Shown here: positions 7,293 through 59,020 of the stretch, one piece after another | Numbering within the stretch: position 1 is the stretch's first letter | Layout: the number at the start of each line of letters is the position of its first letter | From: Subtercola boreus | GTDB taxonomy: Bacteria; Actinomycetota; Actinomycetes; Actinomycetales; Microbacteriaceae | Length of the DNA stretch: 64,000 nucleotides | Assembly: GCF_003399625.1 (NCBI RefSeq) | Contig: NZ_NBXA01000023.1 | Coordinates: 62,001 to 126,000 of the forward strand | Direction: 5' to 3' | The notes under the pieces: generated by a model | Seen by the model: only the letters and a program-made list of their open reading frames with translations | Databases searched by the model: none | What the model was told of the DNA's origin: nothing | Translations under genes and position numbers: made by a program

Positions 7293-7486
7293 AACTCTCC
7301 CTCTGTCATCGTGCCTGAGAGTTTCACCGCAGCGTCGGAGCGCTGGCGACTTTCACCGTGGGCGAGCCCTCCGGACATCCGGGGAGCTACTTTTCAGAGT
7401 GGCCAGTTCGACGCGGTACACGTACCTGAGAGATTGGTGGAGAGACTTGCTCCTTCGGTGCCCCGGCGTGCCTGGGGCTCTCCCGC
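7293..7486 (-). promoter_or_regulatory. Tandem glycine riboswitch upstream of gcvTHP
   Basis: Read on the minus strand, two aptamers appear in series. The first contains GGGAGAG, the conserved CACCGAAGGAGCAAG core and AATCTCTCAGGTAC. The second contains CACTCTGAAAAGTA, a GGTGAAA core and AACTCTCAGGCACGATGACA. These are the hallmarks of the cooperative glycine riboswitch. It ends about 90 nt before the gcvT start. In the known family, glycine binding turns on gcv expression. This element occupies most of the 368-bp gap between gcvT and the CopC-like gene. Confidence 0.88.
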
Positions 7487-7568
7487 ATCGACCTGTCGGC
7501 CGGCAGTGTTCAGTTGTGGGTCGTGGGTAGAACGACCCCCAGCTTAGCGGGCTGCGGGTGGCTGCCGG

Positions 7569-49366: not shown

Positions 49367-50242
49367 TCAGAAGCTGCCGCCCATCTTCTCGAGGCGCGCA
49401 ACGCGCTCGGGGATCGGCGGGTGGGTCGCGAAGAGCTTGTTCATGAGACCGGGCTTCAGGGGGTCCGCGATCCACATGTGCGCCATCGAGGTGGACTGCC
49501 GCGCCATCGGCCGGCCGTAGTTCTCGAGCTTCACGAGCGCGCTGGCGAGGGCATCGGGGTGGCGGGTCGTCATCGCACTCGTCGCGTCGGCCAGGTATTC
49601 GCGCTGGCGGGAGACCGCGAGCTGCACGACAGTCGCGACGAGCGGCGCGATCACGGCGGCGACGAGCCCGAGGATCAGCAGCACCGGGTTCGAGTTGTTG
49701 CTGTTGCCACGGCCGAAGAAGGCCATGCGGAGGAAGAAGTCGGCGATGATGCCCACTGCCACGACCAGCCCGTAGACGATCAGCGACACCCGGATGTCGT
49801 AGTTCTTCACATGCCCGAGCTCGTGCGCCATGACACCCTCGAGCTCGGCGTCGGTCATGATGTCGAGCAGCCCCGTGGTCACCGCGACCACCGCGTGGGC
49901 GGGATCCCGGCCGGTCGCGAAGGCGTTGGGGGCGGAGTCGTTGACGATGTAGACCCGGGGCATGGCCATGCCGGTCGTGATCGACAGGTTCTCGACGATG
50001 CGCCAGAGCCGGGGGTTGTCGGCCTTCTGGATCTCGACCGCCCCGCTCGAGATGACGGCCTGCGAGGCCGCGAAGAAGTACTGCACGATCGCGAACCCGA
50101 CGGCGAAGACCAGGATGACGATCGTCAGCGACAGGTTGTTGTAGAGGAAGCCGGCCAGGTAGCCGAGGCCGCCGATGATGAGGATGAACAGAACGAGGAT
50201 GATGACCGTGTTGCGCTTGTTCTGCGCGATCGCCTTGTACAA
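49367..50242 (-). CDS. HtpX-like M48 membrane metalloprotease
   Basis: 291 aa. The zinc motif is VMAHELGHVKN (His140, Glu141, His144), with the third ligand in the REYLADATSAMTTRHPDALASAL segment. Two N-terminal helices and two further ones flank the cytoplasmic catalytic domain; SAPNAFATGRDPAHAVVAVTTGLL is family-specific. TTG start. It follows lemA by 22 bp; HtpX-LemA pairs are frequent and suggest membrane protein quality control. Confidence 0.92.
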   Translation of the reverse strand: MYKAIAQNKRNTVIILVLFILIIGGLGYLAGFLYNNLSLTIVILVFAVGFAIVQYFFAASQAVISSGAVEIQKADNPRLWRIVENLSITTGMAMPRVYIVNDSAPNAFATGRDPAHAVVAVTTGLLDIMTDAELEGVMAHELGHVKNYDIRVSLIVYGLVVAVGIIADFFLRMAFFGRGNSNNSNPVLLILGLVAAVIAPLVATVVQLAVSRQREYLADATSAMTTRHPDALASALVKLENYGRPMARQSTSMAHMWIADPLKPGLMNKLFATHPPIPERVARLEKMGGSF

Positions 50243-50264: not shown

Positions 50265-50831
50265 TTAGAACTGCACGCGCGGCGGCTCGGCGATCGCCGC
50301 GAGGTCGGACACCTCGAAGAAGTCGCGCGAGCCGAAACCGAGTCGTTTGGCGAACACGTTGTTCGGGAAGACCTTCACCTTGGTGTTGAGCTCGCGCACA
50401 CCACCGTTGTAGAAGCGGCGGGACGCCTGCACCTTGTCTTCGGTGTCGACCAGTTCGGCCTGCAACTGCAGGAAGTTCTGCGACGCCTGGAGCTGCGGGT
50501 AAGCCTCGGCCACCGCGAAGATGCTCTTCAGCGCGGTCTGCATGTGGTTCTCGGCAGCGGATGCCTCGGCAGGCCCCTGTGCGCTGAGCGTCTCGGCGCG
50601 GGCCTGGGTGACGGCCTCGAAGACGCCCTTCTCGTGCGCCGCATAGCCCTTCACCGATTCGATGAGGTTCGGCAGCAGGTCGGCCCGCCTCTTCAGCTGC
50701 ACCGTGATGTCGCTCCACGCTTCGTCGACGCGCACGTTCAGCGTGACGAGCGAGTTGTAGGTCGCCCACAGGTAGATGCCGACGATGACGACGAGCACGA
50801 CAACGATGATCAGGGGGATGAGCCATTCCAT
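50265..50831 (-). CDS. lemA: LemA family protein
   Basis: 188 aa. One N-terminal helix (LIPLIIVVVLVVIVGIYLWA) with the rest as a long alpha-helical bundle: NSLVTLNVRVDEAWSDITVQLKRRADLLPNLIESVKGYAAHE and the end FPNNVFAKRLGFGSRDFFEVSD are LemA hallmarks. Function unclear; almost always beside a membrane peptidase, as here. ATG 50831 is preceded by TATAGT at 7 nt. Confidence 0.92.
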   Translation of the reverse strand: MEWLIPLIIVVVLVVIVGIYLWATYNSLVTLNVRVDEAWSDITVQLKRRADLLPNLIESVKGYAAHEKGVFEAVTQARAETLSAQGPAEASAAENHMQTALKSIFAVAEAYPQLQASQNFLQLQAELVDTEDKVQASRRFYNGGVRELNTKVKVFPNNVFAKRLGFGSRDFFEVSDLAAIAEPPRVQF

Positions 50832-50838
50832 GACCCCC

Positions 50839-50844
50839 ACTATA
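50839..50844 (-). promoter_or_regulatory. -10 TATAGT, leaderless promoter of lemA-htpX
   Basis: On the minus strand TATAGT lies 7 nt before the ATG at 50831. This near-consensus -10 suggests a strong leaderless promoter for the pair. Confidence 0.6.
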
Positions 50845-50859
50845 ACGACTGAGGGCTTC

Positions 50860-50931
50860 TCATACAGCGAGCGCGAGGCAAGCTCCCAGCGACAGTGCGA
50901 TCAGAAAGAAGAGGCGGATCGAGCGCCTCAC
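50860..50931 (-). CDS. Possible 23-aa membrane microprotein at the end of the GH1 operon
   Basis: The GTG overlaps the GH1 stop (GTGA), the same coupling used throughout the operon. It encodes a basic start (VRRSIR) followed by one hydrophobic helix (LFFLIALSLGACLALAV), so a single-pass membrane peptide would result. No homology can be judged at this length, and it may be chance. The gene ends 16 bp before the lemA -10. Confidence 0.3.
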   Translation of the reverse strand: MRRSIRLFFLIALSLGACLALAV

Positions 50932-52493
50932 GAACGCGCCTCGAGCACCCGCTGCAACCACCCGTACGATTCCTTCGGGGTGCGATCCCGCGTGTTCGCA
51001 TCGACATGCACGAGCCCGTACCGCTGGCTGTAGCCGGCCGTCCACTCGAACCCGTCGAGCAGCGAACGGATGTGGAACCCGGCCAGCGTCACCCCCGGTG
51101 CGACCCCGGATGCCCCCACCGCATCGAGCGCAGCGACGACCTGGGCCGTGAAGTGGTCGATCCGTCGGGCATCGTGGATGCGGGCGTCGCCGGTGGCGGC
51201 ATCCAGAACGACCCTGTCGGGAGCCCCGAACCCACCCCCGCTGACGTGCACGGGCGGCAGCGCATCGCCGTACTCGGCACCGAGTTCGGCGAGCGCCACC
51301 CCGAGGAACTCCGGCGCGTCGGGCAGGCCCGACGGGGTGCGCTCGAACTCCGGCCACGGCGCGAAGCGGAACGGCAGCGACGAGAGCGCCGACGCCTCCC
51401 CGTCGGCGGCAGCCACGCCGAGGCCGCCCGCGGCGACACGGGTCGGGGCGCTGTAACTGATGCCGTAGAAGTCGAGAGGCTGCCGGATGATCGCCAGATC
51501 GCTTTCCGACGCTTCGACCATTGGCCGCAGCAGCCGGCTGAACTCATCGGCCACCGACGGGTACCTTCCGAGCAGCACCGCGTCGCCGAACATCCGGTTC
51601 TGCACCGTGTTCCAGAGCGCGGTGAACTGCGCATCGTCGTCGGAACCCGTCTGCGGCGACGTCGGCGAGTAGGCGTTCACGATGCCGATCCCACCCGTCA
51701 CGGGCGCCGCACGGAGCGCCTCGACGGCGATACCGTGCCCCAGAAGCAGGTGGTGTCCGACGGGCAGCGCGTCGAAGAGCAGAGTGGATCCCGGTGCATG
51801 CCGCCCGAACGCGTACCCCTCGAGCATCACCGTGGCCGGCTCGTGCAGGGTCACCCAGCGGTCGACACGATCGCCGAACTGCTCCCCCACCGCGTAGGCG
51901 TAGTCGCCGAAACGGTGCGCGGTGTCGCGCTTCAGCCAGCCGCCGCTGAGCGCCGAGGGGGTGTCCCAGTGAAAGAGCGTCGCCGTCGGGCGGATGCCTG
52001 CGGCCAGCAGCTCGTCGAGCAGGCGGTCGTAGAACGCCACACCGTCACGGTTCAGCGCGCCGGAACCCTGCGGCTGCAGGCGCGGCCAGGCGAACGAGAA
52101 CGAGTACGACTCCGCCCCGAGCGTCGCCAGCAGCTCGACGTCTTCGGACACCCGGTGGTAGTGGTCGGCAGCGATGTCGGCTGTGGCCCCGCCCTCGATG
52201 CGGCCGCGCTGGTGACTGAAGTCGTCCCAGACGGAGGGCTCCCTGCCGCCGTCGTGAGCGCCGCCCTCGACCTGGAACGCACTGGAGGCGACCCCCAGCA
52301 CGAAACCCGCCGGGAGCCTGGTGGCGAAGGCCTCCGCCTCGCCCTGGGCGGTGTCCCGGGCATCCACCCGACGCCTGCCCGCCGCGGTTGCACGCCCGGC
52401 CGAGCCGCTTCCGGAGGGCCCGGCACTGGATGACCGGGGGCCACTCGAACCGATCGCGCCGCTTCCGCCACCCGACCCGCCGCCGCGCCTCAT
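50928..52493 (-). CDS. GH1-family protein lacking the canonical nucleophile motif
   Basis: 521 aa with the complete GH1 barrel order: FVLGVASSAFQVEGG, SFSFAWPRLQPQG, FHWDTPSAL, the acid/base motif WVTLHEPATV (Glu218, with His217 in place of the usual Asn), DFYGISYSAPTRV and SLLDGFEWTAGYSQRYGLVHVD. In place of the strand with the nucleophile (I-T-E-N-G) it has VHVSGGGFG at 416-423, so the catalytic Glu is Gly419. The flanks stay in frame. It may be a non-hydrolytic binding protein, a phosphorylase-like or exo-nucleophile enzyme, or inactive. The first 45 residues are Gly/Ser-rich. Its ATG overlaps the upstream stop (ATGA). Confidence 0.85.
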   Translation of the reverse strand: MRRGGGSGGGSGAIGSSGPRSSSAGPSGSGSAGRATAAGRRRVDARDTAQGEAEAFATRLPAGFVLGVASSAFQVEGGAHDGGREPSVWDDFSHQRGRIEGGATADIAADHYHRVSEDVELLATLGAESYSFSFAWPRLQPQGSGALNRDGVAFYDRLLDELLAAGIRPTATLFHWDTPSALSGGWLKRDTAHRFGDYAYAVGEQFGDRVDRWVTLHEPATVMLEGYAFGRHAPGSTLLFDALPVGHHLLLGHGIAVEALRAAPVTGGIGIVNAYSPTSPQTGSDDDAQFTALWNTVQNRMFGDAVLLGRYPSVADEFSRLLRPMVEASESDLAIIRQPLDFYGISYSAPTRVAAGGLGVAAADGEASALSSLPFRFAPWPEFERTPSGLPDAPEFLGVALAELGAEYGDALPPVHVSGGGFGAPDRVVLDAATGDARIHDARRIDHFTAQVVAALDAVGASGVAPGVTLAGFHIRSLLDGFEWTAGYSQRYGLVHVDANTRDRTPKESYGWLQRVLEARS

Positions 52494-53956
52494 GCGCCGA
52501 GCACGCGGTCGAGGTAGGCGTTCGTGAACAGCCGCGCCGGGTCGAGCCTGTCGCGGAGCGCCACAAAGTCGTCGAAGCGCGGATACAGCTCCCGCAGGTG
52601 CTCGGCACCCCGAGTGTGCAGCTTGCCCCAGTGCGGTCGGCCGGCGTGTGCCGTCATGATCTCCTCGACCGCTTCGAAGTACTTCTCGTGACGTTCACGG
52701 AAGAAGCGGTGCACTGCAATGTATCCCGTCGCGCGTCCGCTCGCGGTCGACAGCCACAGGTTGTCGGCTGCGGCGAAACGCACCTCGACCGGGAACGAGA
52801 CGCGCCAGCCCCGGCGCTCTATCAGCGCGTCGATCTCGCGGAGCACCGCGGGCACCGCTGCGGCCGGCAGCGCGTACTCCATCTCGCGGAACCGCACCGT
52901 GCGCCTCGAGGCGAACACCCGCGGCGAGTGATCCGCGAACTCGCGGGTGCCGGTGAGTCTTTCGGCGACCCTGTTGATGTGCGGGATGACCGGGGGCACG
53001 ATCCGCCCGAGCGAACAGGTGAGTCGGAAGAGCTGGTTCGACACGAGCCAGTCGTCCACGAGGCGCCGCGCGGGTGTGAGCGGGGCGCGCGGTGCTGTGC
53101 CGGGCAGGCGGGTGTTCGTCTTCGTGAGGGCCGTCTGCGTGTGCGGGAACCAGTAGAACTCGAAGTGGTCGGATGTCGCCACCCGGGCCTCGAGCGTCTC
53201 CAGCACCTCCCGCAGCGGTTCCGCACGCTCCACGGCATGCAGAACGAATGCCGGCACGCACTGCAGCGTCACGGAGACGAGGATGCCGAGGGCGCCGAGC
53301 CCGAGCGCGACGGCGGGGAGCAGCTCGGCGTTCTCCGTGCCGTTCCCGGCGTCGCTCGAGATACCACCTACCGTGTCGCCGACCCGCAGGAGCTCGCCCG
53401 TGCCCGTCACGAGCTCGGCTCCGACGACCTGGGCAGCGATGCCGCCGAAGCGGGCCCCTGTGCCGTGGGTGCCGGTGGAGATCGCTCCGCTGATGCTCTG
53501 CCGGTCGATGTCGCCCATGTTCGCCAGGGCGAGGCCGTAGGGCCGGAGCATCCGGGGCAGGTCGAAGAGACGCGTGCCGGCGCCGAGCGTGACACGGCCG
53601 CGCGCTTCGTCGACGGCCAGCACGCCACTGAGGGCGGAGAGGTCGAGCTGCACCCCTGTTGCGACGGCGATGCCCGTGAAACTGTGGCCGGCGCCGACGG
53701 CCTTGATCCGGATGCCCGCCCGGGCGGCCGCGGCGACGGCCCGTTGCACGGCTTGGGCGGTCGCGGGCCGTTCGACGCGTGCCGGACGCACGGCCTCCGT
53801 ACGGCCCCAGTTCTGCCAGACGGCACCGGTGACGGCGGCGCCGCCGTCGGCTCCGAGGCCCACGCCGACCCCGACTCGCGGCCGCCTGGCGCGGCGTGGG
53901 CCGGCAGCCCGCGGGGCGCTGGTGGCCGCGGGCACGTTCGGATCGATCTCGCTCAC
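52490..53956 (-). CDS. FAD-dependent sugar-1,4-lactone oxidase-like protein
   Basis: 488 aa of the VAO family with the ALO (D-arabinono-1,4-lactone oxidase) C-terminal domain. FAD motif AVGAGHSFTGIAV (His91, possible covalent link), SISGAISTGTHGTGARFGG, and the ALO end AGRPHWGKLHTRGAEHLRELYPRFDDFVALRDRLDP. Substrates in the family are aldonolactones (ascorbate-type chemistry) or related sugar derivatives, with O2 or another acceptor. The first 45 residues are a disordered Pro/Arg/Gly extension. Overlaps both neighbours by four bases. Confidence 0.9.
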   Translation of the reverse strand: MSEIDPNVPAATSAPRAAGPRRARRPRVGVGVGLGADGGAAVTGAVWQNWGRTEAVRPARVERPATAQAVQRAVAAAARAGIRIKAVGAGHSFTGIAVATGVQLDLSALSGVLAVDEARGRVTLGAGTRLFDLPRMLRPYGLALANMGDIDRQSISGAISTGTHGTGARFGGIAAQVVGAELVTGTGELLRVGDTVGGISSDAGNGTENAELLPAVALGLGALGILVSVTLQCVPAFVLHAVERAEPLREVLETLEARVATSDHFEFYWFPHTQTALTKTNTRLPGTAPRAPLTPARRLVDDWLVSNQLFRLTCSLGRIVPPVIPHINRVAERLTGTREFADHSPRVFASRRTVRFREMEYALPAAAVPAVLREIDALIERRGWRVSFPVEVRFAAADNLWLSTASGRATGYIAVHRFFRERHEKYFEAVEEIMTAHAGRPHWGKLHTRGAEHLRELYPRFDDFVALRDRLDPARLFTNAYLDRVLGA

Positions 53957-55203
53957 AGGAACGCCTTACCCTCGCCGCGGTAGGTCGGCACAGCCGCCAC
54001 CACCTCATCGCCCGACACCACATGGAACTCGTTCACGTGCTCCGACAGCTCCCCCGACTTCGTGTGCCGGAGCCACACCCTGTCCCCCGCCGCGAGCGCA
54101 GCCGCAGCCCGGCCCGACAGCGGTGTCTGCACCTCACCCGCCATCTCGCGCGGCTGCATCGACAGAGCCTCCGGCCAGACGATCTCGGGGAGACGGTCGG
54201 ATTGCGCGGGGCCGGAGGCGATCCAGCCACCGCCCAGCAGCGTCGCCATCTGCGGCGTGGGCTTTCGCACGACCGAGAGCGCGAACGCGGCCGCCGGCGC
54301 CGGGCGGAAGCGCGAATACGTGTCGAAGAGATGCCCACCGAACAGCCCGCTGCCCGCCGCGACCTCGGTGACGGATGCATCGGCCGAAGTCGATTCGAGC
54401 GAACCGGTGCCGCCGCCGTTCACGAATTCGAGGTCGGCCACCTCACGCACGGCCTCGACGACCGCGCCGCGGCGGTCGGCGATCTCGGCGATGGAACGGT
54501 GCTGCATCCAGTCGAGCACGCGTGCGCGAGCCGGATTGCCACGCGGGCGATTGCCGACGCCCGCGATCTGCGCCTCGTAGCCCATCAACCCGACGAGGTC
54601 GAAGCCGGGCCGCGCGGCGATGTGCTGCGCGAGCACGCGCGCCTGGCCGGCCGTGAAGACCGGCGAGCGCCATACCCCCACGTGCCCGAGGGCGCGGGTG
54701 ACGAACGACGAGTCGAGTTCGATCGAGAGTCGGATGCTCGCCCTCCCCCGCGGCGGAACAACAGCGTCGATCAGGTCGAGGTGCTCCACGGAGTCGACCA
54801 TCAGCGTGACGCGGGAAGCGAGCCGCTCGTCGGCGGCGAGCTGCCGGATCGCCGCACGATCGGCGGTCGGGTACCCCACCACCACGTCGTCGATGGTCTC
54901 GGCGAGCCAGAGCGCCTCGGGCAGCGTGTACCCCAGCACCCCCGCATAGCCCGGGAGCGCGAGCACAGCATCGAGCACGGCACGCACCCGCACGGATTTG
55001 CTGGCGACGCGGATCGGCTTGCCCGCCGCCCGGTCGATCATCGCGAAAGCGTTGTGCGCGAGTGCACCGAGGTCGAGCGCGGCGAGCGGCGGGTCGAGGT
55101 GCGCGGTGGCCCGGGTCAGGCGCGGCCAGTGTTCGGCGGGATCGTGCCACAACGGGGCTCCCGCCGGGGGCCTGGCGAGACTGAACAGGGGCCGGTCATC
55201 CAT
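53953..55203 (-). CDS. PLP fold-type III amino acid deaminase/aldolase
   Basis: 416 aa of the alanine racemase-like N-terminal (TIM barrel) family that includes D-threonine aldolase and D-serine dehydratase. The PLP lysine is Lys69 in RVASKSVRVRAVL; the glycine-rich loop is EFVNGGGTGSLEST; the C-terminal beta domain has VSGDEVVAAVPTYRGEGKAFL. The ATG shares a base with the MFS stop (TGATG), while its own stop overlaps the FAD oxidase start. The true substrate (D-amino acid or hydroxy-amino acid) is unknown. Confidence 0.86.
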   Translation of the reverse strand: MDDRPLFSLARPPAGAPLWHDPAEHWPRLTRATAHLDPPLAALDLGALAHNAFAMIDRAAGKPIRVASKSVRVRAVLDAVLALPGYAGVLGYTLPEALWLAETIDDVVVGYPTADRAAIRQLAADERLASRVTLMVDSVEHLDLIDAVVPPRGRASIRLSIELDSSFVTRALGHVGVWRSPVFTAGQARVLAQHIAARPGFDLVGLMGYEAQIAGVGNRPRGNPARARVLDWMQHRSIAEIADRRGAVVEAVREVADLEFVNGGGTGSLESTSADASVTEVAAGSGLFGGHLFDTYSRFRPAPAAAFALSVVRKPTPQMATLLGGGWIASGPAQSDRLPEIVWPEALSMQPREMAGEVQTPLSGRAAAALAAGDRVWLRHTKSGELSEHVNEFHVVSGDEVVAAVPTYRGEGKAFL

Positions 55204-56546
55204 CAACGGACGCTCCTCACTCGGGCGACGGCCACGGATCCGGCAGCCGCGAACAGGGCGGCCAGCACGAAGAGCGCCATGAATCCGCCGGTCATCGCCA
55301 CGACGAGCGCTCCGAGCAGCGGCGCCATCGCCTGCGGAACCGCGGTCGCGATGTTCATGATGCCGAGGTCCTTGCCCCGCGCGGCCGGATCCGGCAGCAC
55401 CTGGGTGGCGAGTGCCTGGTCGACAGAGAGGAAGCAGCCGTAGCCGAGGCCGAGGAGCCCTGCCGCGACCATGGCCGCTGGGAGGTTCGGCACGAACGCC
55501 AGCAGCAGGGCGGCGAGCGCCTGCAGCACCGAGGCTGTGAAGACGAAGGCCCGCCGGCGCTCCAGGCGGTCGGAGAGCGCCCCGGCCCCGAGGGAGGCGA
55601 GGATGACGAACACCATGTAGATGAGCGTCAGAACGATCAGATCGGTCTCCGCCGACTCGTCGTGCAGACCGTAGGTGAGAAAGTACAGCAGCAGCGCCGT
55701 TCCGAGGGCGTTGCCGGTGTTCACCAGCACCCGGCCGAGGAGCGTGAACCCGAAGTCGGGGTGACGCGTGGGGCTGATCCAGAAGCCGTTGAAGAAGCTG
55801 CGCACGCCGAAGGGCGCTCGGGCGGAACGCGCGAGCACCGCATCCGGAGCCCACAGGCAGAACGGCAGCACGAGCAGCACCAACAGCACGGCAACGGCCA
55901 GGTAGCCGGCGAACTGCGCCGTGAAGAGGGTCGTCACCAGAATGAGGCCGAGGATCGTTCCGATCGCCTGCGGGGCGGCCAGCCAGCCCGACACCACTCC
56001 GCGCTGGGACGTCGGCACCCGGTCGGAGATGGTGGCCGTGAGCGCGGCGGTGAGCACGCAGAAACCGGTGATGGCGAGAACCCAGAAGATGCCGACCCCG
56101 ACAAGCGTGCTCTGGGCCCCGAGCAGTGCCAGCGACGACCCGAAGACCAGGGTTCCGACGACCATCCAGGGGCGGCGGCGACCGAAGCGCGAGGTGGTGC
56201 GATCGGAGAGGGCGCCGGTGAGCGGGAACGCGATGAGCGCTGCGACACCCGCAAGGCCCGAGATGACGCCGAACGCGAGCACGCTGGCGATCCAGTCCGT
56301 GGAGGCGGCCGCGGCTGAGGCAGAGCCGCTCTGCAGGCTCTCGATCTGCAGGGGCAACAGCAGTTGGATCGGGGTGAGCTGGGCCATCCAGATGCCGAGC
56401 CAGGCGGCGGCGAACAGTGCGATCCAGCCGCCGCCGACCCGGATCCGGGGCTCTGCGAAGGCTTCGGGGGTACCCGCAGGCACCGCGGGGGCGTCGCGCG
56501 CGTCATGCGGCCGAGGGGTCTCACGCGACATCCGGCTACCGTCCAT
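55203..56546 (-). CDS. MFS transporter, first gene of the four-gene operon
   Basis: 447 aa with about twelve transmembrane helices and a 45-residue Pro/Arg-rich cytoplasmic N-terminus. The loop motif LSDRTTSRFGRRRPWMVVGT is the A-motif seen in GPH-like sugar:cation symporters and related MFS proteins; ALSDRLERRRAFVF is its second-half echo. This suggests uptake of a sugar or glycoside. ATG 56546 is given; ATG 56531 is possible. It diverges from the Ig-like membrane protein gene over about 70 bp. Confidence 0.88.
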   Translation of the reverse strand: MDGSRMSRETPRPHDARDAPAVPAGTPEAFAEPRIRVGGGWIALFAAAWLGIWMAQLTPIQLLLPLQIESLQSGSASAAAASTDWIASVLAFGVISGLAGVAALIAFPLTGALSDRTTSRFGRRRPWMVVGTLVFGSSLALLGAQSTLVGVGIFWVLAITGFCVLTAALTATISDRVPTSQRGVVSGWLAAPQAIGTILGLILVTTLFTAQFAGYLAVAVLLVLLVLPFCLWAPDAVLARSARAPFGVRSFFNGFWISPTRHPDFGFTLLGRVLVNTGNALGTALLLYFLTYGLHDESAETDLIVLTLIYMVFVILASLGAGALSDRLERRRAFVFTASVLQALAALLLAFVPNLPAAMVAAGLLGLGYGCFLSVDQALATQVLPDPAARGKDLGIMNIATAVPQAMAPLLGALVVAMTGGFMALFVLAALFAAAGSVAVARVRSVR

Positions 56547-56617: not shown

Positions 56618-59020
56618 GTGTCAGTTCTGAAATGGGGAAAGTCCGGGGGCAGGCCGGCGGGGTCGGCTGCTCTGCGTCCGCGATCCCGGGTGCTGATAGC
56701 GCTCTCACTGGTGGGTCTGCTGCTGCCTGCGGCGCTCACGCTCGCGACGGGTTCGGAGCGGGCGACAGCCGCGGTGACGGCCTCCGCTACAACGACAACT
56801 GAACCGACACCTGCACCGAGCGTCGCGCCGGGTGTGCCCGCACCCACCTCGACTCCAGCGCCCACACCCCCGCCGACACCTCCCCCGTCCGACCCGGATC
56901 CGATCAGCAGGCCGGAGATCACCTCCCCGGGCTCGGGTGAGCTCCTCGGCGGCGGTTTCACCATCACCGGAACCGCCGAGCCGGGCAGCTCGGTGCAGAT
57001 CTCGGCCAGCACGCGCTCCGATCCGCTCTGCGTGAGCACGGTGGGCACCGACGGCACGTTCAGCTGCAGCACGGGGGCTCTGCCGAATGCCCCAGGGGTG
57101 CAGCTGCGGGTCGTGCAGCTCGTCTCCGGGCACGCCAACTCCAGCGACACGGTCACGGTCGACGTTCTCAACGCCCCGACGGCAGAGTCCGGCTCGTCGT
57201 CGGGAGTCAGCACCGGCTACGGAACGGTGCGGGGCTCGGCGGCAGGCGGGGCCACCGTTCGCGCGAGCGCTGCCGGTGACGCCGGCTCGTTCGACTGCCT
57301 CGCCGTCGCCGACGGGTCGGGCGGCTGGGCGTGCAACCTCGGGGCGGGCATCCCGAGCGGTATCCTCCGGGTGCAGGCGACGCAGTCCACCACGTGGAGC
57401 GGGGGCGAGTCGCCGGCCAGTGCGTCGTTCACCCTGCGCATCGACTCGGACACACCGGCACCCCCCGTCGTGACGAGCCCGGCCCGGGGAACGACGGTGC
57501 GGGCATCCGGTGCCGTCTTCGCCGGTACCGGCGAGCCCCAGGCGCTCGTCACCGTCTTCGCCGGATCGTTCGCAGCCTGCACGGCAACGGTGCAGAACGG
57601 AGCGTGGAGCTGCACGGCCGGTGACCTCGCCGCCACCCGGGCACCCGTCTCGGCCATCCAGCAGGACGCTGCGGGGAATGTCAGCAACGAGAGCACGGCG
57701 TTCGACGTGGTGTTCGTCGCGGGCACGCCCACACCTGGCCCGTCGGCGAGCGCACCCGCCGCGCCGGGCGCGGCTTCCGGCGGCACGGAGGCGCCCGGTG
57801 CTGGCGGCGCCGCCGGGGCGGGCGGCACCGGCGGCGCGGCTTCCGGCGACGGCAGCGGTGCCGGTGCCGGTGCCGGTGGAGCCGACGGCACGGGTGGCGC
57901 TGGCGGCGCGACCGGCCAGGGCGACGGCGGTGCCTCCGGGGGCTCGGGAGCCGGATCCGGCGGCGCACCGGGATCCCCCGGCCCAGGCGGCAGCACGCCG
58001 CACACCGAGGCGCACGGCGCCGACGGATCGTGGGCCGGCTCGACCCGCTTCTCGGTGTCGCTCGCACCCGTCTTCGGCCAGGCATCGGGACTCAACTGGC
58101 TCCTGGCACTCGGGGTCGCCGTGGCCGCCCTCCTCCTCGTTGCTGCACCCGCACGGCTGATGGCCGGAGCTCTCTCGGTCTCCTTCCGGGCGCGGATCAG
58201 GCGAACGGGAACCCTGCTGACCGGGCGGAACCGCCCCCGCAACGAGTTCGACCGTGCGCCCGAACTGGCCCTCAACCCCTGGGTGCTCGCCTCGGTCAGC
58301 ATTGTCGCGGCCGCCGCCATCGGCATGCTCTCGGGGCCGGTCGAGAACCAGCCGGCCTACCTCCGCCTCCTTGCGGCGATCTGCATCGCCTTCGCTGTTC
58401 TGAACGCGGTCTCCGTGCTGGTTCCGCGGCTCCTCGGGCTCCGGATGCTCGGCATCCGGTCGACCGTGACGTTCGCGCCGCGCTACCTCGCCCTCGCGGT
58501 GGTCGCCACGATCGTCTCCCGCGTGTTCACGATCGAGCCTGCCCTGCTCTTCGGGCTGGTGCTCGCAGCCGGGTGCGCCGACGGGGCCTCACGCCGCATC
58601 CGCGGGCAGTTCGCGATGCTCCACCTCCTCACCCTGCTGGTGCTCGGCGGCGTCGCCTGGACAACGATCAGCCTGCTGCCCGCCCTCGGTACGCCGTTCG
58701 GGGCTTTCGCAACCGAGATCCTCAACACACTCGCACTCGGATCCTTCGGGGCTGCGGCCGTTCTGGTGCTCCCGTTCGGGAGATTCAGCGGGCGCGCACT
58801 GTTCGCGTGGTCCCGGGCAGCGTGGCTGGCCACGGCGCTCGGAGCCTTCACCCTGCTTGCCGCGGTGGTCGCTCCCGCCGTGACCCCCGGCGCCGGGATC
58901 GCCGCAGCGTCGGCACCGGTGCCGGCCCTCGCCGCGCTGCTGCTCGTCGGGGTCGGTTTCGCGGCGGTGAGCCTGTCGGTGTGGGCGTGGCTGCGGTTCG
59001 TCGCTCCGGCGCTGAAGTGA
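56618..59020 (+). CDS. Ig-like, Gly-rich, polytopic membrane protein
   Basis: 800 aa. N-terminal hydrophobic signal anchor (about 24-46), a Pro/Thr-rich stretch (60-95), three Ig-like bacterial domains of about 90 residues (about 98-370, each with G-T-A/G-E-P-G or S-x-x-x-V-x-x-S and a Cys pair such as DPLCVSTVGTDGTFSCSTG), a Gly/Ala-rich linker of about 95 residues, then from about 490 to the end about nine transmembrane helices (for example LNWLLALGVAVAALLLVAAP). The Ig part would stand outside the cell. GTG start; stop overlaps the GH76-like ATG (TGATG). Function unknown. Confidence 0.85.
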   Translation: MSVLKWGKSGGRPAGSAALRPRSRVLIALSLVGLLLPAALTLATGSERATAAVTASATTTTEPTPAPSVAPGVPAPTSTPAPTPPPTPPPSDPDPISRPEITSPGSGELLGGGFTITGTAEPGSSVQISASTRSDPLCVSTVGTDGTFSCSTGALPNAPGVQLRVVQLVSGHANSSDTVTVDVLNAPTAESGSSSGVSTGYGTVRGSAAGGATVRASAAGDAGSFDCLAVADGSGGWACNLGAGIPSGILRVQATQSTTWSGGESPASASFTLRIDSDTPAPPVVTSPARGTTVRASGAVFAGTGEPQALVTVFAGSFAACTATVQNGAWSCTAGDLAATRAPVSAIQQDAAGNVSNESTAFDVVFVAGTPTPGPSASAPAAPGAASGGTEAPGAGGAAGAGGTGGAASGDGSGAGAGAGGADGTGGAGGATGQGDGGASGGSGAGSGGAPGSPGPGGSTPHTEAHGADGSWAGSTRFSVSLAPVFGQASGLNWLLALGVAVAALLLVAAPARLMAGALSVSFRARIRRTGTLLTGRNRPRNEFDRAPELALNPWVLASVSIVAAAAIGMLSGPVENQPAYLRLLAAICIAFAVLNAVSVLVPRLLGLRMLGIRSTVTFAPRYLALAVVATIVSRVFTIEPALLFGLVLAAGCADGASRRIRGQFAMLHLLTLLVLGGVAWTTISLLPALGTPFGAFATEILNTLALGSFGAAAVLVLPFGRFSGRALFAWSRAAWLATALGAFTLLAAVVAPAVTPGAGIAAASAPVPALAALLLVGVGFAAVSLSVWAWLRFVAPALK

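Follow-up and report, generated by a model that had tools for sequence, protein, structure and literature searches.

Repeated loss of catalytic residues from an operon beta-glucosidase of Microbacteriaceae and its probable retention as a GH1 pseudoenzyme

The stretch of DNA considered in the present study (the window) comprises 64,000 nucleotides of a Subtercola boreus contig (NZ_NBXA01000023.1) and carries on its minus strand a set of overlapping genes, MFS - PLP enzyme - FAD oxidase - GH1, the last of which (50928..52493; 521 aa, ATG start) encodes a predicted GH1-fold protein without the catalytic nucleophile, here called pseudo-GH1. The MFS transporter gene (55203..56546, minus strand) is the first of the operon and is followed by that of a PLP enzyme of the alanine racemase N-domain/D-threonine aldolase kind (AlaR; 53953..55203, minus strand, with the ATG at 55203 as the likely start), whose likeness to D-threonine aldolase is distant. 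The FAD-linked oxidase (ALO; 52490..53956, minus strand, TIGR01679), which belongs with the sugar-lactone/alditol oxidases and has galactonolactone dehydrogenase and xylitol oxidase as its nearest solved relatives, ends within the GH1 gene, its stop overlapping the GH1 start by 4 bp (52490-52493). TMpro (56618..59020, plus strand), a divergent gene whose product has a bacterial Ig-like domain, adjoins the locus in most of the fetched relatives, and downstream of GH1 lie a LemA-family gene (50265..50840, minus strand) and then an M48 peptidase gene (HtpX-like; 49367..50242, minus strand). The anti-phage models gave no matches to the four operon proteins. Elsewhere in the window, two tandem glycine riboswitch aptamers (RF00504) were found at 7299-7495 on the minus strand.

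Pseudo-GH1 is a single-domain protein, in which Pfam Glyco_hydro_1 (PF00232) covers residues 59-519, corresponding to positions 4-450 of the 453-position profile (378 bits, a full-length match), and the N-terminal ~50 residues beyond this match are low-complexity in appearance. In place of the (I/V)TE(N/G)G of retaining beta-glucosidases, its nucleophile strand reads P-P-V-H-V-S-G-G-G-F-G, with Gly419 (codon at 51237..51239, minus strand) at the site occupied by Glu in retaining GH1 enzymes and in every one of the 50 intact operon-type proteins used for comparison. The acid/base Glu of the NEP motif is retained as Glu218, though it is preceded by His217 (codons 217-218, 51840..51845, minus strand), where 50/50 intact proteins have Asn. 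These features, already described in the first-pass annotation, were confirmed by the sequence; absent from its list were the changes W476R (codon at 51066..51068, minus strand; Trp in 50/50 intact proteins), W390L (51324..51326, minus strand; Leu replacing the Trp that is conserved in TxxGWP), F388S, Y348S, N481G, and F492Y, all at positions invariant in the 50 intact operon-type proteins. The best NCBIfam match was TIGR03356, the bacterial GH1 beta-glucosidases (396 bits, residues 61-512), and this equivalog score was no longer used to judge loss because the intact S. vilae orthologue (470) likewise falls below the cut-off of 478.5, which makes the cut-off uninformative on loss; the G008 orthologue scored 425, and other altered proteins scored 388-427 (L037, L035, and L039) and 416 (L043). 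The accessible part of a study on a Streptomyces GH1 assigns Gln29, His123, Asn167, Tyr267, Gln363, and Trp364 to subsite -1 and Trp291 to subsite +1, with Glu168 and Glu318 as the candidate acid/base and nucleophile, respectively (PMC12369401). Mapped by motif, the subsite residues correspond to Q74, H175, N217, Y347, E483, W484, and, for the +1 Trp, W390; on this motif-based assignment of roles, from that part of PMC12369401, five of the six subsite -1 residues are kept in pseudo-GH1 (Q74, H175, Y347, E483, and W484), and the Asn is replaced by His. The same genome carries a second GH1, an intact and more distant paralogue.

An orthologue of pseudo-GH1 was present in 12/12 Subtercola genomes searched, the nucleophile being kept in eight and absent in four, namely G000 and G009 (S-G-G-G), G001 (A-G-L-G), and G011 (T-S-I-G). 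A sequencing error at codon 419 was rejected as unlikely because the last three genomes also have no Glu at this place. Only small residues (G, S) occur at the nucleophile site of these four proteins, three of which keep the acid/base Glu; in G011, this residue too has been replaced, by Ala. S-G-G-G was shared by G009, and a normal T-E-N/G-G in the same operon, named in the first-pass annotation as a refuting observation, was found in many relatives and in 8 of the 12 Subtercola genomes; the existence of these intact homologues means that the altered state is derived and is not an ancestral chemistry. The G008 orthologue has both catalytic Glu residues, yet it carries H217, R476, R390, S388, L348, and G481 where the 50 intact proteins (a comparison set that excludes G008 and two order-level rows) uniformly have N, W, W, F, Y, and N, and in the tree it is sister to the four nucleophile-less Subtercola proteins (support 100/99). 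Its sister position and altered surroundings, with both Glu still present, therefore indicate that the nucleophile was lost only after conserved residues in its surroundings had been replaced. Gene conversion between Subtercola and Cryobacterium, considered for the shared R..LLDGFEWTAGY..RYG, was rejected in a check of five Subtercola proteins against one Cryobacterium protein (L040), in which the segment identity to L040 was not raised in altered compared to intact Subtercola.

In the family as a whole, the AlaR gene was detected in 206/398 genomes (E<=1e-60) and a strong GH1 match in 97/398 (E<=1e-108), 96 of which were fetched (all except G300). The resulting set of 89 operon-type rows longer than 300 aa, mostly from the same family, also drew on relatives from other searches (G006, two order-level genomes, and three named Cryobacterium records among them) and contained 36 rows without one or both catalytic Glu residues, against 0/68 among the other GH1s. 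The latter comprise 48/48 GH1s outside the operon type and 20/20 loci of the order search (19 outside the family and 1 inside), all with both Glu residues, and some of the 19 out-of-family control loci are probably close to the operon-type clade. Many operon orthologues retain NEP and TE(N/G)G. Both residues were lost in 21 of the altered rows, the nucleophile only in 13, and the acid/base only in 2 (G078 and G202); by group, the altered rows are distributed as 4 in Subtercola, 1 each in G395 (g98) and G279 (g11), 12 in Cryobacterium, 5 in g105, 8 in g66, and 5 in g55. Every row was altered in Cryobacterium (12/12, >300 aa), g55 (5/5), and g66 (8/8) among the genomes with a match. The residue that replaces the nucleophile varies from one lineage to another (G, S, A, L, V, D). 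Note that “altered” is defined here by Glu, so that nine rows with Asp at the acid/base position (eight of Cryobacterium, and G312), one with Asp at the nucleophile position (G325), and one with a gap at this position (G179) are all counted as altered; some of these rows might accordingly keep weak activity. The open frames of the altered rows span 350-521 aa, the shortest being cut by a contig end, and in G312 a TAG lies within the longer match, outside the frame used.

Left out of the counts were the distant GH1s L045, L046, and L049, the 152-aa partial rows L047 and L048 (both without the nucleophile), and L044 of Cryobacterium breve with its broken matches in several genes. The L044 matches to AlaR, GH1, LemA, and an AlkZ-like (wHTH) gene are each broken into pieces, a pattern that suggests indels in the assembly more than pseudogenes. 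In the Nocardioides GH1 of L049 (7001-8278), both Glu residues are kept, the acid/base is preceded by Tyr, and Arg stands at the position of Trp476; with its LLDGFEWTAG, this protein from outside the family resembles an early step of the change described here. A tandem pair of GH1 genes, with the catalytic Glu intact in both, follows the oxidase gene in L141 (G069).

The number of independent losses was estimated from a carefully built tree that contained 90 rows (87 of the operon type and 3 of the outgroup; the partial rows L136 and L139 are among the 89 rows and outside this tree), from which the active-site columns had been removed. This tree requires six changes of catalytic state. Four losses, those of Subtercola, G279, G395, and g105, stand beside intact sisters with starred support; Cryobacterium and g55+g66 lie on an open backbone, g55 and g66 being long branches whose union was flagged by the program. 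Cryobacterium and g55+g66 may share one event, and at least five loss events are therefore counted. A single loss ancestry for all altered proteins was rejected, as placing the 35 altered tree rows in one clade lowered the log-likelihood by 425 (p-AU 6.8e-6).

The changes that accompany these losses fall in large part on the same conserved positions. In the 50 intact proteins, conservation reaches at least 95% at 142 positions. With a change scored wherever half or more of a group departs from the conserved residue, 67 of these positions were unchanged in all seven altered groups, and eight (L377, F388, W390, Y348, E419, N481, A485, and F492) were changed in all seven, against an expectation of 0.0008 if the groups are independent; in this count, E419 is among the residues that define the groups, two groups consist of one sequence each, and the possible sisters g55 and g66 are taken separately. 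Changes in at least six groups were found at 11 positions, compared to at most 2 in 20,000 permutations. Several of the eight positions are located in or adjoin active-site motifs. The mapped residues Q74, H175, E483, and W484 persist in most altered groups, although not in all, since g55 lost Q74, H175, and Y347, G279 lost E483, and G395 lost W484. The retention of subsite -1 residues is about that of other conserved positions and, given also the losses in g55, is by itself no argument for sugar binding.

Selection on the altered genes was estimated as pairwise dN/dS (NG86), a simple measure in GC-rich genes, with pairs of dS 0.05-1.2 in the group comparison, which covers six altered groups. 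The altered groups gave medians of 0.13-0.22 (three Cryobacterium groups, 0.18, 0.13, and 0.16, the last from a single pair; g66, 0.16; g55, 0.17; Subtercola, 0.22), resembling the 0.09-0.25 of the intact groups (Subtercola including G008, 0.18; g98, 0.09; g11, 0.25; g96, 0.22; g58, 0.23). There is no general relaxation of selection in these altered groups. Within close Subtercola pairs, the values were about twofold higher for altered proteins (0.15-0.24, all six pairs) than for intact ones (0.06-0.14, the four closest intact pairs). The loss of catalytic residues is thus combined with a frame under purifying selection, as expected of a pseudoenzyme. A pseudogene was rejected on the grounds of the occurrence in several genomes, the long open frames, and dN/dS, and the earlier opinion that decay is unlikely is supported.

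The altered gene also occurs where its operon does not. Twenty-six genomes were searched at E<=1e-40 for the oxidase and at E<=1e-5 for the PLP enzyme: 21 chosen as absent from the AlaR matches, in which neither gene was found at these thresholds, and 5 positive-control carriers, all of which were detected. All 21 genomes without the two genes carry an altered GH1. In the cross-table of the 89 rows, with two order-level rows unscored for the PLP gene, 51 intact rows (including G008) and 15 altered rows are accompanied by the PLP gene, and 21 altered rows and no intact row are found without it. GH1 is still located beside TMpro in 19 of the 21 genomes (7 of g66, 5 of g55, 4 of Cryobacterium, and 3 of g105); no TMpro was seen in the fetched stretch of G395, and the contig of G011 ends before the TMpro position. 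An independent-pairs test of inactivation against operon loss, underpowered with five pairs, was not significant (median p 0.25). The likely order of events is that catalysis was lost first and the operon second. AlaR and ALO remain in L091, L113, L043, and L127, with no MFS match between TMpro and AlaR, and the transporter may therefore have been the first operon gene lost; L124 (G266), with an intact GH1, likewise has no MFS match.

An exact 12-mer, GAGAGCGCTTCC, which we take to be LacI-operator-like, is kept at a distance of 72-142 bp before the beginning of the GH1 match in seven g66 loci without the operon core (L150-L156), and also occurs upstream of the active Subtercola paralogue (L002 and L175). 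The seven exact matches in G384, G078, and G000 comprised two g66 loci, one active Subtercola paralogue, and four others; no GAGAGCGCTTCC regulon is claimed because these remaining four lie at unrelated genes or at genes without a Pfam match.

Taken together, these sequence comparisons are best explained by repeated conversion of the operon beta-glucosidase into a retained GH1 pseudoenzyme, which would have a non-catalytic role, probably in binding or as a scaffold, and we regard this explanation as probable. It fits better than altered chemistry or decay because the same residues change repeatedly, the rest of the protein is constrained, and the gene outlasts its pathway. An altered catalysis would use Glu218 as acid/base together with an external nucleophile (phosphate or carboxylate), or proceed by elimination or by cleavage redox-coupled to the oxidase, as had been suggested in the first-pass annotation. 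In its favour, 34 proteins have no nucleophile Glu, and of these 13 still have the acid/base Glu and nine more have Asp in its place; the residues at the Subtercola nucleophile site are, in addition, exclusively small, such as are used at this position in engineered glycosynthases. Moreover, Gly/Ala mutants of glycosidases are rescued by azide or formate, according to the part of PMC12018205 available. However, N217, W476, W390, Y348, and N481 are changed as well, the nucleophile replacements vary, the acid/base Glu is gone in 21/34 of these proteins (the nine with Asp included), and no oxidase match was obtained in 21 genomes that carry such proteins. Nucleophile-free or oxidase-coupled chemistry was rejected as the main reading on the last two points, and altered catalysis of any of these kinds seems quite unlikely; the earlier proposal of glycoside binding is plausible.

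Slow decay, with catalysis useless and the gene drifting and persisting by chance or by its operon position, would account for the loss of catalytic residues and then of operon neighbours, and agrees with the at least 109 family genomes that have the PLP gene and no strong GH1 match (206 vs 97 of 398) and with the raised dN/dS of close altered Subtercola pairs. We consider it unlikely in view of the long frames and low median dN/dS of the altered groups, the alteration of every row in Cryobacterium, g55, and g66 among the genomes with a match, and the persistence of the gene after the PLP and oxidase genes were lost. A frame conserved for a reason other than its protein, such as an overlapping or antisense gene, a regulatory RNA, or polar effects on LemA-HtpX, could be imagined from the long antisense ORF that overlaps the GH1 gene (50895-52433, plus strand) and from the location of GH1 directly upstream of LemA in several lineages. 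Long antisense ORFs are, however, common in GC-rich DNA, no Rfam family reached the gathering score over the GH1 gene region, no LemA match was seen in the fetched stretch of 7/8 g66 loci, and the GH1 profile match persists even in a g55 protein (271 bits), all of which makes such a reason very improbable.

The sequences show that most orthologues in the operon MFS - PLP enzyme - FAD oxidase - GH1 are ordinary GH1 proteins. In one Subtercola lineage, N217H, W476R, and changes of W390, F388, Y348, and N481 arose around the site first, as in G008, and were followed by loss of the nucleophile and, in one genome (G011), of the acid/base as well. The groups measured have stayed under purifying selection, and several lineages have kept GH1 after losing the other operon genes. 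Under the preferred reading of a retained pseudoenzyme, the altered proteins would no longer perform the GH1 double displacement of glycosides, and their job would be a non-catalytic one, most likely the binding of a glycoside or glucose via Q74, H175, Y347, E483, and W484, or of a protein partner. More tentatively, and with somewhat less than an even chance, the operon beta-glucosidase of Microbacteriaceae could have had a second, non-catalytic function as a glycoside sensor or scaffold, and could have been converted in the same manner whenever catalysis became dispensable, outliving its pathway as a bacterial, repeatedly evolved counterpart of Klotho.

Work on pseudoenzymes has often dealt with one ancient event at a time or with the outcome of a duplication, and here the orthologous operon copy itself has changed several times in one bacterial family. 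A search of the open-licence literature, covering titles and abstract openings, found no bacterial GH1 pseudoenzyme among the matches listed. With G008 as an intermediate, several lineages as replicates, and intact sister species for control, the system makes it directly testable what selects a catalysis-free glycosidase fold and how the dismantling of an active site proceeds step by step. In addition, GH1 gene counts in Cryobacterium, Subtercola, and their relatives may overstate the beta-glucosidase capacity of these bacteria.

Among known systems, the TIGR03356 beta-glucosidases are the nearest by profile, and pseudo-GH1 differs from them by the lost nucleophile and several changed conserved residues. 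Nucleophile-to-Gly GH1 mutants and glycosynthases share with pseudo-GH1 the Gly at the nucleophile position; however, engineered glycosynthases change one residue, whereas several conserved residues are changed together in pseudo-GH1. In the part of PMC12369401 available, the E318G mutant of SGR_2426, the Streptomyces GH1 with Glu318 as candidate nucleophile, had drastically reduced activity, and its crystal contained sophorose, although a soak at 500 mM was required. This bound sugar and the binding role of the Klotho domains make a sugar or a partner protein the natural candidate for what pseudo-GH1 may bind. The GH28 pseudoenzymes of leaf beetles, described in the accessible text of PMC6549527 as inactive glycosidases that are kept, functionally important, and tied to gene duplication, share the retention of a glycosidase without activity, which for pseudo-GH1 is a presumed inactivity; they differ in belonging to another family and in their tie to duplication, since in the case of pseudo-GH1 it was the operon copy itself that changed. 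In domain terms, pseudo-GH1 resembles KL1/KL2 of Klotho, GH1-like domains without the full catalytic pair, which act by binding according to the portions seen of PMC7828330, PMC10628560, and PMC6770519. The view of the first-pass annotation that GH1 variants lose the acid/base and not the nucleophile does not agree with KL2, which has Ser at the nucleophile position (PMC6770519, same portion). As far as these portions describe it, Klotho differs in being an animal co-receptor with tandem GH1-like domains, whereas pseudo-GH1 is a single GH1 domain of a bacterial operon with several origins in one family.
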